From a virus, in IMG/VR virus record IMGVR_UViG_3300034020_000505, positions 1 to 46,679 of that record: a DNA stretch of 46,679 nucleotides; one strand, written 5' to 3'. The notes under the pieces are model-generated. The model did not search any database. It worked only from the letters and a program-made list of their open reading frames with translations, and was not told where the DNA came from. Shown one piece after another: positions 4,124-8,987 of this stretch. The position numbers and the translations under genes are program-made. Every line of letters begins with the position of its first letter. The first letter of the stretch is position 1.

Positions 4124-4432
4124 TCAAACCTCGTGTGTGGCGTGCTGCAGAAGCCGTTGATGCAACTGATCCAACAGCGTGGCGATACTTGCCGCCGCCG
4201 CCTCGAGCTCGTCGATCGCCGCCTTGACGGCGTCGTTGTGGGAATCACGCCACAGCGGCCCGCCCTCGTAGGGAATCGGGATGTTGCCCGCGCCTGTGTG
4301 GACCCACTGCTCGACACGGTCACGGCCCGGCTTCTCACGCAGCTCGCCGCTTTCGTGGACGGCGAACGGCTGAAACGGGTACAGCGGCATGGCGTAGCGG
4401 GCATAGAGATACACGCGGTGCAGCGTCTTCAC
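4124..4432 (-). CDS. hypothetical protein downstream of RecT
   Basis: A 102-aa protein whose ATG overlaps the recT stop (ATGA). The N-terminal half contains an aromatic-rich stretch (YLYARYAMPLYPFQPF). Residues about 65-100 form a predicted helix or coiled coil (DAVKAAIDELEAAAASIATL). I do not recognise the family. Position directly after recT suggests an accessory role in recombination or early replication, but this is context only. Confidence 0.75.
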   Translation of the reverse strand: MKTLHRVYLYARYAMPLYPFQPFAVHESGELREKPGRDRVEQWVHTGAGNIPIPYEGGPLWRDSHNDAVKAAIDELEAAAASIATLLDQLHQRLLQHATHEV

Positions 4433-5304
4433 GTCGTCACCTCGTGCTGGGCGGCCTCGTGGGCGAACTCCTGTCCACGGTCCTCAGGCACGGCCGACAG
4501 GATGTCGAGCTTGCCGTTGATGAGCAGGAACAACTCGTCGGCCTGCGCCGGCGTGTAGAAGCCGCTCTTGAGCCGCTGCTCGACGATGCCCTGCATTCGC
4601 TCGAGATGCCCGGCCGTGGCCGTCTGGACGTGGTGCCTGGCCTTCTGCATGTCCTCGGCGGTGGCGGTGGTCGCCTGGGCCGCCGTCTGGATCTCGGGCC
4701 GGTGCGTGGCAGGCGCGTCGAACTTGGGCCGCACGACGATGGGCTCCGATGCCGGCTGCGGCGTCGGGTAGTCCTGCGCCTCCTCTGCCGTCACGAGCCC
4801 CTTCAACACGTCAGGGAAGGCGTCACGAAGAGCGAAGCCACGGGCACGCAGCTGGAGCATCCGTTTCGGATATTGCGTCCACGGGCCGCTTTTTCCCCAC
4901 AACCCAGCCCGTTTGGCGTCGGCCACAGAGAACTTCACCACCGTTGCGCTTTCGTAGCCACGGCGCTTCGCGGCACACGCTGCCGTCATTGCGTCGCCAT
5001 CGCCGTCGAGGTCTTCCTTGACGAACTCGCAGACCGGCGAGCCAAGCACCAATGCCAGGGCAGCATCACCCCAGACGCTCGGACGCCCGTTGATTACGGC
5101 GATCGACTGGAGCGACTGCATGGGCGACAGGCCGACTTCTGCGCCGTGCTGGATCGCCAGCAGGCAACTCTCAGGCTTGCCCTTGAAATCCTTCGGCGCG
5201 AACTCCGACGCCGAAACCATCTTCGAGAACCGGAAAGCGTCATCGAACGAGGCGAGGGCCAACCCCCTCGCGGGCGTCGTGTTTGTGCTGATCTCCGTGG
5301 TCAT
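4429..5304 (-). CDS. recT: RecT-family single-strand annealing protein
   Basis: A 291-aa protein. Residues 50-85 (LAIQHGAEVGLSPMQSLQ, then VINGRPSVWGDAALALV) carry the conserved signature of RecT-like phage recombinases, and WTQYPKRMLQLRARGFALRDAFPD matches the second conserved block. RecT proteins coat single-stranded DNA and anneal complementary strands in phage recombination and replication. AAAGGGAC precedes the ATG. The partner exonuclease (RecE/YqaJ type) is not in the window and may lie beyond an end. The C-terminal 100 residues are A/Q/T-rich and probably flexible. Confidence 0.88.
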   Translation of the reverse strand: MTTEISTNTTPARGLALASFDDAFRFSKMVSASEFAPKDFKGKPESCLLAIQHGAEVGLSPMQSLQSIAVINGRPSVWGDAALALVLGSPVCEFVKEDLDGDGDAMTAACAAKRRGYESATVVKFSVADAKRAGLWGKSGPWTQYPKRMLQLRARGFALRDAFPDVLKGLVTAEEAQDYPTPQPASEPIVVRPKFDAPATHRPEIQTAAQATTATAEDMQKARHHVQTATAGHLERMQGIVEQRLKSGFYTPAQADELFLLINGKLDILSAVPEDRGQEFAHEAAQHEVTT

Positions 5305-5438
5305 GTCGCGTCCCTTTCGTTGCGAATGAAATCCCGCCTGGCGTCCTGCTCGGCGGGTGGTGTCCCTTCCTTGGCCTGCGGCTCCATGCCGCTTCCTTCC
5401 GCACCGTCGTCTCCGACGCCGGGCGGTCCTGTGCTCAC
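5301..5438 (-). CDS. 45-aa ORF coupled between mom-like gene and recT
   Basis: A GTG-initiated frame starts inside the stop codon of the Mom-like gene (GTGA) and stops inside the recT start (ATGA). An internal ATG at 5387 has its own strong ribosome site (GGAAGGAAG) and would give a 28-aa product in the same frame. The product is charged and disordered-looking, ending DFIRNERDAT. It may be a real small protein or only a means of coupling translation from mom to recT. The ends at both neighbours support translation, but no family is recognised. Confidence 0.5.
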   Translation of the reverse strand: MSTGPPGVGDDGAEGSGMEPQAKEGTPPAEQDARRDFIRNERDAT

Positions 5439-6193
5439 GCCATGCGTGATCTAAACAACGGCAACTCCGGCTCTTCTCGCCTGGTCGTGATCGGAAACGA
5501 CACCGGCGCGTAGTCAGCGGCCTTTGGGTACGGCATCGCTCGCGGCAGCAGCCTGCGGCGCGCCCAAGGTGTCAGTGGAAACGCATAGCGAAACTGGCGG
5601 AACTCGTGCTTCGTGGCACGATCGCGGCCAGCGGCAAGCCTTGCCGCCTTTGGTCCGCTTCCCCATCCGCGATTGTCTTTGGCGGCTCGCCCGAGCAGCG
5701 ATTTGTGAAACCACTCGCCGTCGAGGTAGTAGAAGGCGGTGACGTGGCTGCCCAGGTAGATGAAGTTTGCTGCCTGATACACCGCGCCGAGCTTGCCACA
5801 ACGCTGGTCTGCAAAGCTCTGCACAACCTGCACAGAAGGTCGCTGGCTGCGAATGACTCGCATCGCCTGCGATATGGCCCACGAAACCACGTTCTTTTCA
5901 TGACCATCGACAAACGCCATGCGATTTAGCTCAACAAGCCCGTCTGGCTTCAGCCCATCAATGACCTTTGCGGTGGCTCGCGGGTTCATTGCCGGGCCAA
6001 ACTGCATGACACCCCACACGAACGCTAGCGAATCGACTAGAGCCAAGTGCGTGTGCGAAGCCCACACGGCGCTGCCGCTGTAGTGGCGCTCGGCAATCCA
6101 GCGATCTGCAAAACGCTTTGTCACTGGTGACAAGGCGTAATGCCGATTTCCGATTGGTGTGTATGCGTTGGTCATTGGTTCGCTCGTGTCCAT
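5435..6193 (-). CDS. Mom-like DNA adenine modification protein (GNAT fold)
   Basis: A 252-aa protein resembling Mom-family adenine modifiers. Residues about 32-45 (RWIAERHYSGSAVWAS) match the RxHYSG block. The core continues with HLALVDSLAFVWGVMQFGPAM, then VELNRMAFVDGHEKNVVSWAIS and VVQSFADQRCGKLGAVYQAANF, the usual core of the family. In phage Mu, Mom converts adenine to N6-carbamoylmethyladenine and blocks host restriction. Here the gene leads the recT-ibrB-ibrA run. No strong ribosome site is seen; the alternative ATG lies 6 codons downstream. Modification of this phage's DNA is inferred, not shown. Confidence 0.75.
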   Translation of the reverse strand: MDTSEPMTNAYTPIGNRHYALSPVTKRFADRWIAERHYSGSAVWASHTHLALVDSLAFVWGVMQFGPAMNPRATAKVIDGLKPDGLVELNRMAFVDGHEKNVVSWAISQAMRVIRSQRPSVQVVQSFADQRCGKLGAVYQAANFIYLGSHVTAFYYLDGEWFHKSLLGRAAKDNRGWGSGPKAARLAAGRDRATKHEFRQFRYAFPLTPWARRRLLPRAMPYPKAADYAPVSFPITTRREEPELPLFRSRMA

Positions 6194-6519: not shown

Positions 6520-6547
6520 AATGTACGCCCGTCCAGTAAGGCGTCAA
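6520..6547 (-). promoter_or_regulatory. predicted sigma70-type promoter for the early operon
   Basis: Minus-strand TTGACG, a 16-bp spacer and TACATT place transcription start near 6512, about 25 bases before the ATG at 6489. The match is good for a -35 box and moderate for a -10 box. Confidence 0.55.
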
Positions 6548-6620
6548 GGGGTCAAGTCAACAAAATGAGGGGAGTCGAACTTCTGTACACCTGTCGGGCG
6601 TATAGGCTGGTTGGTGCATA

Positions 6621-6649
6621 TGTATACGCGGGTCATTGCATATCGTCAA
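6621..6649 (-). promoter_or_regulatory. predicted sigma70-type promoter with TGCAA element
   Basis: Minus-strand TTGACG, exactly 17 bases, then TATACA. The spacer begins ATATGCAA, an element also present in the promoters at 7469-7497 and 7897-7924. The -35 box contains the stop codon of the upstream gene (6646-6648). It would transcribe the mom-recT-ibrBA operon. Confidence 0.65.
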
Positions 6650-6879
6650 CGCACGATGCCAAGGGCTGCATCAGCGAGCTCCAGCGTCGCCCGCCCGAAT
6701 TGCCGCAGGCGACCAGGCGGCGCGATGTGCGACGCCTGGTGCTGGGCGATTTGCTGCCCGAGGGCCGCCCGGTGGGCCACGTCGATGGCTGCCAGGTGGC
6801 ATCGCACCTCGATCGCCAACCCGGCACCTATGGTCATGGTCACGATCGCTAGGGCGGCGCGGACGATGTCGCGGATCAT
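6646..6879 (-). CDS. small membrane-anchored protein
   Basis: A 77-aa protein. Residues 5-25 (IVRAALAIVTMTIGAGLAIEV) form one probable membrane helix; the rest is Q/A/R-rich. Its ATG overlaps the stop of the preceding gene (ATGA). Its stop codon lies within the -35 box of the promoter at 6621-6649. No family recognised. Confidence 0.65.
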   Translation of the reverse strand: MIRDIVRAALAIVTMTIGAGLAIEVRCHLAAIDVAHRAALGQQIAQHQASHIAPPGRLRQFGRATLELADAALGIVR

Positions 6880-7055
6880 GCCGTCACCTGCGATTCCGCC
6901 GCCTTGATCTGGGCAAGCATCTGCCGGGCCTCGTCCTTCGTGTCGTAGCTGCCCACGCTCCAGGCGTCGGCACCACGCTGAGCGAGGATCTCGAACCAGT
7001 AGCAGACGCCACGGCTGCGGGGGTCGCTGATTTTCTTGATGCGGTAGGTGGTCAT
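6876..7055 (-). CDS. hypothetical 59-aa protein
   Basis: Starts MTTYRIKKISD, with AAAGGGC just upstream. The compact sequence (GVCYWFEILAQRGADAWSVG, then SYDTKDEARQMLAQIKAAE) reads as strands followed by one amphipathic helix, a common layout of small phage early proteins. It is coupled to the downstream membrane protein. Function unknown. Confidence 0.75.
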   Translation of the reverse strand: MTTYRIKKISDPRSRGVCYWFEILAQRGADAWSVGSYDTKDEARQMLAQIKAAESQVTA

Positions 7056-7111: not shown

Positions 7112-7417
7112 TCAGAGCGCCGTGATGAACGCCGGGCTCACGCCGCTGATGTTCATGGTGAAGCAGCCGTGCAGCATCGCCGAGTAGCCGCCGACGCCCG
7201 AGCCGTCCGTACCCCACATGCTGCCGCCGCGAGCCTTGACCATCGACAGGATGCCGTAGTACTCGCCGTCGAGCTGCACAAACTCCTCGCGGCTGTTCGG
7301 CGTGAAGTGCTTCACGATCGTCACGACGTTGGTCGATACGTTGGCGTGAACCAGCCAGCCAGCCTCACGAGCGGCGGCGAGGAATTTGGCGGCGGCGGTC
7401 TTGGTTGCGGTCTTCAT
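7112..7417 (-). CDS. conserved-type phage early protein, function unknown
   Basis: A 101-aa protein. The ATG at 7417 has GGGAGACG upstream. An ATG at 7462 in the same frame sits exactly at the expected transcription start of the promoter at 7469-7497 and would give a 116-aa leaderless product. The sequence includes GEYYGILSMVKARGGSMWGTD, then a GCFTMNISGVS segment, a pattern I associate with small phage proteins of unknown role. I assign no function. Confidence 0.75.
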   Translation of the reverse strand: MKTATKTAAAKFLAAAREAGWLVHANVSTNVVTIVKHFTPNSREEFVQLDGEYYGILSMVKARGGSMWGTDGSGVGGYSAMLHGCFTMNISGVSPAFITAL

Positions 7418-7468
7418 CGTTTCGTCTCCCGGTTCGCGTCCGCGAGTCTCATTCGCTCGCATGCCCCA

Positions 7469-7497
7469 ATCATATCGGCAGATCGTTGCATATGCAA
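7469..7497 (-). promoter_or_regulatory. promoter with overlapping palindromic operator
   Basis: Minus-strand TTGCAT, 17 bases, TATGAT. The -35 box is half of the perfect palindrome TTGCATATGCAA (7486-7497), a good candidate for a repressor or Cro-type operator. The sequence from TGCAA through GGGGCATG is spaced identically in the promoter at 7897-7924. Confidence 0.65.
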
Positions 7498-7539
7498 TAG
7501 GGGGAAATGCCGGGGAAAACCTACTTTTCCAAGAATTTT

Positions 7540-7890
7540 TCAGCCGCCCTTGGCCTTCCGCGCTGGCCGGGCTGACTTTTCCGCCCTCTTGGCTGGCTTC
7601 CTGGGCTTGGCCGCGGCGGCCTCGTCCTGCCCGCTACGGTCGCGCCCACGCGGAAACCCGACGTGCGGCGGCCGAGCTGCCTCCTCGGCGACGAACTTTT
7701 CAACGCTCTTCCGCTGGATCATCCAGCCGTGGCCTGGGATCAGCGTCCCTGCCAGCCGCTTGCCCTCGGGGCGCGGCTTGTCCTCGTCATAGACGAGCCT
7801 GGTGACGGTGCTGGGGGCTCGAGCCCCGATTTCGGCCATCACCTGCCGAACGGTCATGTAGCCCGCGAACGGGTTAGCCATTGCGATCAT
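7540..7890 (-). CDS. HTH DNA-binding protein, possible excisionase or repressor
   Basis: A 116-aa protein transcribed divergently from the integrase. Residues about 11-60 (YMTVRQVMAEIGARAPSTVT, a short linker, then GHGWMIQRKSVEKFV) read as a MerR/excisionase-like HTH with a short wing. The last 40 residues are a basic A/K/P-rich tail like those that bind DNA non-specifically. The ATG at 7890 lies at the predicted transcription start; the ATG at 7881 is an alternative, with AGGGG at a better distance. Adjacency to the integrase suggests control of excision or lysogeny, but this is inference. Confidence 0.75.
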   Translation of the reverse strand: MIAMANPFAGYMTVRQVMAEIGARAPSTVTRLVYDEDKPRPEGKRLAGTLIPGHGWMIQRKSVEKFVAEEAARPPHVGFPRGRDRSGQDEAAAAKPRKPAKRAEKSARPARKAKGG

Positions 7891-7896
7891 GCCCCT

Positions 7897-7924
7897 ATCG
7901 TATCGCCGAGTCTTTGCAAATCAA
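7897..7924 (-). promoter_or_regulatory. promoter of the integrase-divergent HTH gene
   Basis: Minus-strand TTGATT, 16 bases, TACGAT. The palindrome TTTGCAAA overlaps the spacer. Downstream of TGCAA the spacing is identical to the promoter at 7469-7497, including CGATAyGAT and GGGGCATG. The predicted transcription start coincides with the ATG at 7890. Confidence 0.55.
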
Positions 7925-8008: not shown

Positions 8009-8034
8009 TTCGAGTGGAGGCGAGTCCCCTCGAA
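8009..8034. repeat. inverted repeat upstream of the integrase
   Basis: TTCGAG and CTCGAA flank a 14-base centre in the 188-bp gap between the divergent HTH gene and the integrase. It may be an operator, an integrase arm site or part of attP. Nothing in the sequence decides among these. The rest of the gap shows no gene. Confidence 0.35.
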
Positions 8035-8078
8035 TAAGTGTATACCGATGTACAGTAGGACCACGAAGGGAGGCACCG

Positions 8079-8987
8079 ATGACGCTGGCAGAACTGTTCG
8101 AGCGATACGCAGACCTGCGGAACCTGGACGCTAAGACAACCGCCCTATACGGCATGCTCCTAGATCGCCTGCGTGCGTTCCTGGGGCACGAGCCGACGGT
8201 AGCCGACCTGGATGACCTTACGATCAGTCGCTACCTCAGGGCTCGTGCTACGCAGTCCTGCCGGGGCAAGGTCGTCAGGCCGGCTACGGTGCAGAAGGAC
8301 AAGGTGATGATTCAGGCCGTCTGGAACCTGGCGGCGCGGAAACGGTGGGCGGCCGAGTTCCCAGAACTGCCTCGCATCAAGGTCGCCAAAAGCATCCCGA
8401 CGGGCCGGGCGTACACGTCCGACGACGTGGCAAGGTTGATTCGCCGCGCCCACATGCGATGCGGTCGCACGGGCGGCAAGCCTTCAGGCTGGTGGTGGGC
8501 CACGCTGATCTACATGGCGTACTGCACCGGGGAGCGGGCCACGGCCCTCCTGTCGCTCCGGTGGGGCGAGCTCGACCTCGAGCGTCGCCGGGTGCGATTC
8601 CTGGGCGCGACCCGCAAGAACAGCACGCACGACATCGAGCGTGACTACACGCCAGACCTGGCGGCGATGCTGGCCGCCCAGCGAGGACGACCGGAGGATC
8701 TCGTCTGGCCGTGGGATCGCCACAAGTCGAGCATCTGGACAAGCCTCAAAGTGCTGTGCCGCCTGGCCGGCGTGCAGTATCGGGGCTTCCACGGGCTGCG
8801 TCGTACGCGAGCGTCATACGCCGCCCTGGCTGGCGGAACCGCTGCGGCCACGCAGGTGCTCGATCACAGCGACCCCAAGCTCCAGGAGCGGTACGTCGAT
8901 CCCACGATCTGCCCGACGCAGCAGGCCAGCGTGGACGTGATGCCGCCACTCAACCTGTCCGAACCCCCGACAAATCCTCGGCAGTAG
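8079..8987 (+). CDS. int: tyrosine-family site-specific integrase
   Basis: A 302-aa protein; the ATG follows AAGGGAGG. An N-terminal core-binding domain covers about residues 1-100 (SAM-like). The catalytic domain carries R153 (CTGERATALL), K180 (TRKNS), H238/R241 (FHGLRRTRA), H263 (LDHSD) and the nucleophile Y272 (ERYVDP), so the full set is present. It catalyses recombination between phage and host attachment sites. It is the only confident plus-strand gene in the window and lies beside the putative excisionase/regulator. No attP core could be assigned. The gap 8988-9085 downstream shows no gene. Confidence 0.95.
   Translation: MTLAELFERYADLRNLDAKTTALYGMLLDRLRAFLGHEPTVADLDDLTISRYLRARATQSCRGKVVRPATVQKDKVMIQAVWNLAARKRWAAEFPELPRIKVAKSIPTGRAYTSDDVARLIRRAHMRCGRTGGKPSGWWWATLIYMAYCTGERATALLSLRWGELDLERRRVRFLGATRKNSTHDIERDYTPDLAAMLAAQRGRPEDLVWPWDRHKSSIWTSLKVLCRLAGVQYRGFHGLRRTRASYAALAGGTAAATQVLDHSDPKLQERYVDPTICPTQQASVDVMPPLNLSEPPTNPRQ

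Follow-up and report, generated by a model that had tools for sequence, protein, structure and literature searches.

The window, which is the whole viral stretch of 46,679 bases analysed here, carries an integrase gene on the plus strand, and the gene order leading away from this divergent gene is read on the minus strand. From the integrase it runs through promoter P2, the gene of a 116-residue protein (7890-7540), promoter P1, two small genes (7417-7112 and 7055-6876), and promoters P3 and P4 to an early operon on the minus strand, whose genes include a small one at 6489-6214 and those for a Mom-like protein and RecT. Compared with related sequences, the locus appears to be a three-promoter control switch in a family of uncultured phages. 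Its features are listed below.

8079..8987, plus strand: tyrosine integrase, divergent from the regulator (Pfam Phage_integrase, PHROG integrase)
7897..7924, minus strand: P2 promoter, TTGATT-16-TACGAT, predicted leaderless for the regulator (sequence; kept in all relatives; spacing statistics)
7901..7920, minus strand: putative P2 operator TTTGCAAAGACTCGGCGATA (matrix rank 2 in the window)
7540..7890, minus strand: type-A regulator P0001 of 116 aa, with the ATG at the P2 start as its start codon (relatives and AlphaFold model)
7469..7497, minus strand: P1 promoter, TTGCAT-17-TATGAT (sequence; kept in relatives)
7473..7492, minus strand: putative P1 operator TATGCAACGATCTGCCGATA (matrix rank 1 in the window)
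7442..7460, minus strand: hairpin GCGAGCGAATGAGACTCGC, with which the P1 transcript is predicted to begin (86 viral stretches have it exactly; covariation)
7421..7430, minus strand: Shine-Dalgarno segment GGGAGACGAA of the P1 leader (alignment)
7112..7417, minus strand: first of the accessory genes read from P1, 101 aa, with its start at 7417 and not 7462 (alignment, codon test)
6876..7055, minus strand: second small gene in the P1 interval, 59 aa (relatives occupy the same interval)
6621..6649, minus strand: P3 promoter, TTGACG-17-TATACA (sequence; TTGAC-N-TATACA kept in type-A loci)
6623..6642, minus strand: putative P3 operator 1 TATGCAATGACCCGCGTATA (matrix rank 3 in the window; equivalent place in relatives)
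6601..6620, minus strand: putative P3 operator 2 TATGCACCAACCAGCCTATA, over the predicted start region (matrix rank 4; tandem 22-bp pair in relatives)
6520..6547, minus strand: P4 promoter, TTGACG-16-TACATT, with SOS-box-like spacer, upstream of the early operon (sequence; independent of regulator type)
4429..5304, minus strand: early-operon gene for a RecT-like annealing protein, downstream of P3 and P4 (Pfam RecT; same strand in the compared loci)

Relatives were gathered by four routes, with 22 loci found via the regulator protein (intact N-terminus), 57 loci via the integrase, 36 further stretches via the promoter pattern, and 86 viral stretches via the exact leader hairpin.

Two other genes on the minus strand were noted. 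The Mom-like DNA modification protein (5435-6193; Pfam Mom, E 1.4e-52) is almost unique to this phage among the compared loci. A phosphoadenosine phosphosulfate reductase-like protein with DUF3440 (1554-2831) adjoins a ParB-like nuclease; genes of this kind are known in sulfur-based DNA modification and among phage auxiliary genes.

Putative operators at three promoters and their regulator types

A sequence-only reading of this DNA had described look-alike sites at P1 and P2, and the pattern TGCAA-N8-CGATAYGAT-N-GGGGCATG is indeed exact and identically spaced at 7460-7490 and 7888-7918 (minus strand). These are the only two matches in the window, even at three mismatches, with 0.00 expected from 100 shuffles, and the motif core is absent from the remainder of the record. 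The third promoter site proposed there, ATATGCAA at 6621-6649, is present as well. The palindromes pointed out in that reading, TTGCATATGCAA and TTTGCAAA, did not hold as binding elements: they are exact in 10 and 4, respectively, of 26 type-A loci, and short palindromes were rejected as the operator by this low exactness. TGCAA is present at P1 in 17 and at P2 in 9 of the same 26 loci.

The element conserved in P1 and P2 alignments of the relatives is 20 bp long (TATGCAnnGATCnGnCGATA at P1, TTTGCAnnGATnnGnCGATA at P2). It sits in the -35/-10 spacer and reaches two bases into the -10 box. An operator matrix was built from relatives only, with the window excluded from training. The top four matches in the 46.7 kb window were P1, P2, and two sites at P3, with 31.3, 23.6, 16.3, and 16.2 bits, respectively, and the next match had 9.7 bits. 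Top scores in shuffled sequences had a mean of 9.5 and a maximum of 17.6 bits; the two P3 scores fall within this highest single shuffle, and their support is conservation in relatives, not the score alone. The second P3 site (6601-6620), 22 bp from the first, is a fourth operator that had escaped the earlier reading. The triad of P2, P1, and P3 was found in nearly all type-A loci of sufficient length, with the P3 pair 22 bp apart; the few without a P3 match are short or have an altered P3 (e.g., L020 and L087). Operators are single at P1 and P2, and paired at P3 alone.

In the operator symmetry test, inverted symmetry was found for types A (P1), C, D, E, and G, and not clearly for types B and F at P1 and for most P2 operators. 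The symmetry is weak in type A and B operators, and one side of the P2 operator is degenerate in several types. Direct-repeat operators, as for Apl, were rejected, as type-A operators have no excess of direct repeats.

At least seven types of winged-helix regulator (clusters at 50% identity) occupy the same slot in the same layout, each with its own operator, for example TTCTAACGCCGACGCTAGAA in type C, TTTACCGATACCGGTAAA in type D, and AAGTAACGATAACGCTAC in type G. Over seven types, the similarity of P1 and P3 operators was 14.8 within and 7.3 across types (p 0.00015), and that of P1 and P2 operators 9.8 and 5.7, respectively (p 0.0001), with the own-type value on the diagonal the highest in every row. 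The P3 regions entering this comparison were located from P4 and not from the operator, which avoids circularity. When each cluster was reduced to a single representative, p was 0.0007 or lower at 50-70% identity and 0.058 at 40%, where there are just five clusters. The tests comprise seven to fifteen independent regulator types, with family borders drawn by single-linkage clustering.

Because the operators at P1, P2, and P3 match the type of the regulator, the protein at 7540-7890 is tied to these sites; linkage by itself would not make paralogous sites change in step. That one regulator acts on at least three transcripts, and that it is the protein encoded at 7540-7890, had both been suggested before, and both suggestions gain support from this comparison, as operator type changes with regulator type at all three promoters. 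An explanation in which P1 and P2 are alike merely as promoters of the same sigma factor, with no common regulator, is highly improbable. Both do carry -35/-10 elements, and the -10 forms part of the shared motif, but what changes with regulator type at each of the three promoters is the spacer content and not the hexamers, and pairs taken across types, which have the same promoter hexamers, score near background.

The regulator and its operators move together, independently of the integrase: locus L066 has an integrase 96% identical to that of the window, yet a type-B regulator with type-B operators, and type-A regulators are accompanied by integrases from 100% down to 37% identity. The two promoters had also been called a duplicated module. 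Their likeness is real, and origin by duplication is doubtful; since the likeness is confined to operator and -10 and is maintained within each family, co-evolution with one regulator fits better than simple duplication.

Phage immunity specificities are known from a few cultured groups. The more than 80 loci of uncultured phages are a natural exchange experiment, with many regulators and operators in one architecture, from which recognition rules for a poorly understood class of winged-helix regulators can be read in sequence and which predicts mutually excluding phages. Immunity groups of Cluster A mycobacteriophages likewise show joint diversification of repressor and DNA sites with several specificities, but have many dispersed stoperators (PMC6550527), whereas there are four sites at three promoters here.

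Predicted leaderless start at P2 and the slot behind P1

A leaderless ATG had been proposed at both promoters; it is supported for P2 and rejected for P1. At P2, 84 of 87 loci have a gap of 6 or 7 nt between -10 and ATG, no properly spaced Shine-Dalgarno sequence was found upstream of the ATG in any of the 87, and codons 2-3 vary at first and third positions only, as in coding sequence (27 comparable starts). On these grounds P2 is leaderless by every sequence criterion, with a predicted 5' end.

The P1 transcript is predicted to have a 44-nt 5' leader with the hairpin and a Shine-Dalgarno site; after the hairpin comes GGAGACGAAACG-ATG, whose ATG at 7417 is the real start. Of 81 distinct leaders, 31 have no ATG at the P1 start site, and changes within the leader do not follow the pattern of coding sequence, with in-frame stops in several of 33 comparable leaders and no codon-position bias; a leaderless start at P1 was rejected for these reasons. 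In the hairpin stem, compensatory changes were found at four of the five pairs, with covariation of 0.531 against 0.252 after shuffling (0 of 500). The set was anchored without demanding pairing, and the false anchor L031 was excluded. No Rfam match was obtained over the region up to E 1. A few loci (L026, L037, and L062) have P1 but lack the hairpin. A 5'-terminal stem that protects the message is known for ompA, and by analogy the P1 stem may likewise protect its mRNA.

Behind the P1 leader, 78 distinct proteins in 41 families are encoded, and a given accessory gene can be found under different regulator types. The first accessory gene of the window (7112..7417) had no match in a Pfam search. 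Being under the same control, the small unknown genes of this slot are candidates for early takeover or counter-defence functions. In a tentative model, which we consider possible but somewhat less than even in probability, the accessory slot is of a plug-in kind and is placed under a regulator of immunity type. The operator at P1 would be swapped together with the regulator, and the constant 44-nt hairpin leader would be a portable expression signal and a homology joint for the exchange of accessory genes. Early genes and shifting takeover or counter-defence genes would then be silenced together, and the seven or more specificities would be separate immunity groups.

Regulator protein and proposed early control

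In the AlphaFold model of P0001, a winged helix-turn-helix at about residues 11-72 (pLDDT about 90 for 11-70) is followed by a basic tail. The best folds were BldC of Streptomyces (6ama/6amk; Z 6.8) and Pukovnik Xis (Z 6.6), both under 8, with Foldseek E of 0.18-0.28; the structural matches cover about 51-54 residues at 20-22% sequence identity. Relative to BldC and the MerR-family DNA-binding domains, which stand as best structural matches at these Z values, P0001 has no effector domain and a basic tail instead. A Pfam search of P0001 gave no match, HTH_17 included. Among the sister regulators, type-B L043 is over the HTH_17 cut-off (32.6 bits, cut-off 27) and others are below it; type A has diverged from these HTH_17-matching sisters. 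The best reading of the model is a winged helix with an excisionase/BldC-like fold. No HTH_3 or Peptidase_S24 domain, as in CI-type repressors, was found in the record, while control searches matched.

The locus is quite probably a temperate phage's region for early control, of immunity type, in which one small winged-helix protein binds at P2, P1, and P3. Sequence comparison shows that the operators are shared and co-vary with the regulator, gives the gene order, and indicates a leaderless P2 and a transcribed hairpin at P1. We infer binding of the operators, repression rather than activation, and a role in lysogeny. The regulator would be made from the leaderless mRNA at P2 and would bind the 20-bp spacer operators at P2, P1, and P3 (two at P3), where it most likely blocks RNA polymerase. 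When bound, it would limit its own synthesis at P2, an autoregulation weaker than the repression at P1 and P3, and would silence the changing accessory genes downstream of P1 and, downstream of P3, the recT early operon. Once the regulator is lost, the mRNA from P1 would begin with a stable hairpin and a strong site for ribosome binding, and early lytic expression would start from P3. Repression of P3 and P1 is suggested by operators that overlap the -10, by normal spacers, by the P3 pair ahead of recT, and by the best-scoring operator at P1. Overlap with the -10 in a 16-17-bp spacer is the usual position of a repressor site. Points against a one-protein repressor switch are the presence among the fold relatives of excisionases, whose modes of binding are different, the one-sided degeneracy of P2 operators in several types, and the weak symmetry of type A and B operators.

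Placed beside the integrase gene, the protein might be mainly an excisionase (recombination directionality factor) of that integrase, with promoter control as a second job, as in Apl of phage 186. Its closest solved folds include Pukovnik Xis, the GIsul2 excisionase, and RdfS, and other regulator types match HTH_17. This alternative is on the whole unlikely, while retaining some weight. The operator matrix matched type-A loci at the three promoters and not in the putative attP, where sites of such factors can lack a consensus, and the shuffling of regulator type against integrases of 100% to 37% identity is unexpected for a factor serving one integrase. Apl, a dual excisionase and lysis-lysogeny regulator, is also a small excisionase-fold protein at early promoters next to an integrase, but its sites are direct repeats spaced by one helical turn, which it binds with high cooperativity and little specificity (PMC7498355), and RdfS of ICEMlSymR7A has no consensus site (PMC11963761), unlike the discrete, single 20-bp operators with strong type specificity found here. 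XisF4 of Pf4, which works against a separate C repressor (PMC7379572), and RdfS are likewise winged-helix proteins of excisionase type that also control transcription; the P1 leader and the triad are present here and in neither of those systems.

A Cro- or activator-like early regulator, which turns P1 and P3 on in the manner of MerR or acts in lytic growth alone and is no lysogenic repressor, has a still smaller probability. The MerR family is among the fold relatives, and its members bind spacer palindromes and activate. MerR-activated promoters have an over-long spacer of 19-20 bp, whereas the spacers here are 17 (P1), 16 (P2), and 17 bp (P3); the promoters are near consensus and need no activator, and searching the window gave no other repressor of CI type.

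The preferred reading, a repressor of immunity type, resembles lambda CI, which has its own promoter, a leaderless mRNA, operators shared with early promoters, and several swappable specificities in lambdoid phages. The regulator here shares a promoter of its own, a predicted leaderless mRNA, putative operators at its own and early promoters, and swappable specificities. It differs in the winged-helix fold, with no HTH_3/S24 domain found and no Cro partner recognised, in the single operators at P1 and P2 with a pair at P3 only, and in the extra accessory slot with its structured leader.

P4, possible LexA control, and a candidate attachment site

P3, a promoter close to consensus (TTGACA/TATACA-like), precedes the recT operon. 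P4 lies between P3 and the early genes; it is kept under all regulator types and has the SOS-box-like spacer TGAAC-N4-GTACA. As P4 has no operator and also reads into the early operon, the regulator cannot be its sole control. A similar element, CCGAAC-N4-GTACGG or GAACGG (e.g., CCGAACATATGTACGG), stands in putative lexA promoters from the family of G001, the one MAG in which relatives were found, which makes control of P4 by host LexA possible. DNA damage may then open P4 while the phage protein holds P3.

Between P3 and P4 (6560-6590, minus strand), TTCGACTCCCCTCATTTTG resembles a tRNA T-arm with acceptor strand, with GTGTACAGAAG ahead of it; it recurs there at about 16 loci belonging to several types. 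An early candidate for attP, the tRNA-arm-like TTCGACTCCCC downstream of P3, was dropped because a site adjacent to the integrase better matches a tmRNA 3' end. This candidate attP, GGGGACTCGCCTCCAC, lies at 8014-8030 (minus strand), between integrase and P2. In many relatives the corresponding sequence is ACTCCCCTCGCCTCCAC, which forms the end of the tmRNA gene on its 3' side in 18 of 22 matched genomes of the G001 family (one match, that in G001 itself, is phage DNA); other loci have different tRNA-like ends there. Upstream of the integrase (8040-8056, plus strand), GTATACCGATGTACAGT is an element of GTAC-N4-GTAC type like that of P4 and lies over the putative integrase -10.

Among phage isolates, only distant Thermus phages match the integrase. 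In the genome-collection search, relatives were found only in the short-contig MAG Proteobacteria bacterium WB4_3_0938. Two different phages of the group (L118 and L119) lie on its short contigs, and the MAG may be a host or the phages may be co-binned with it.
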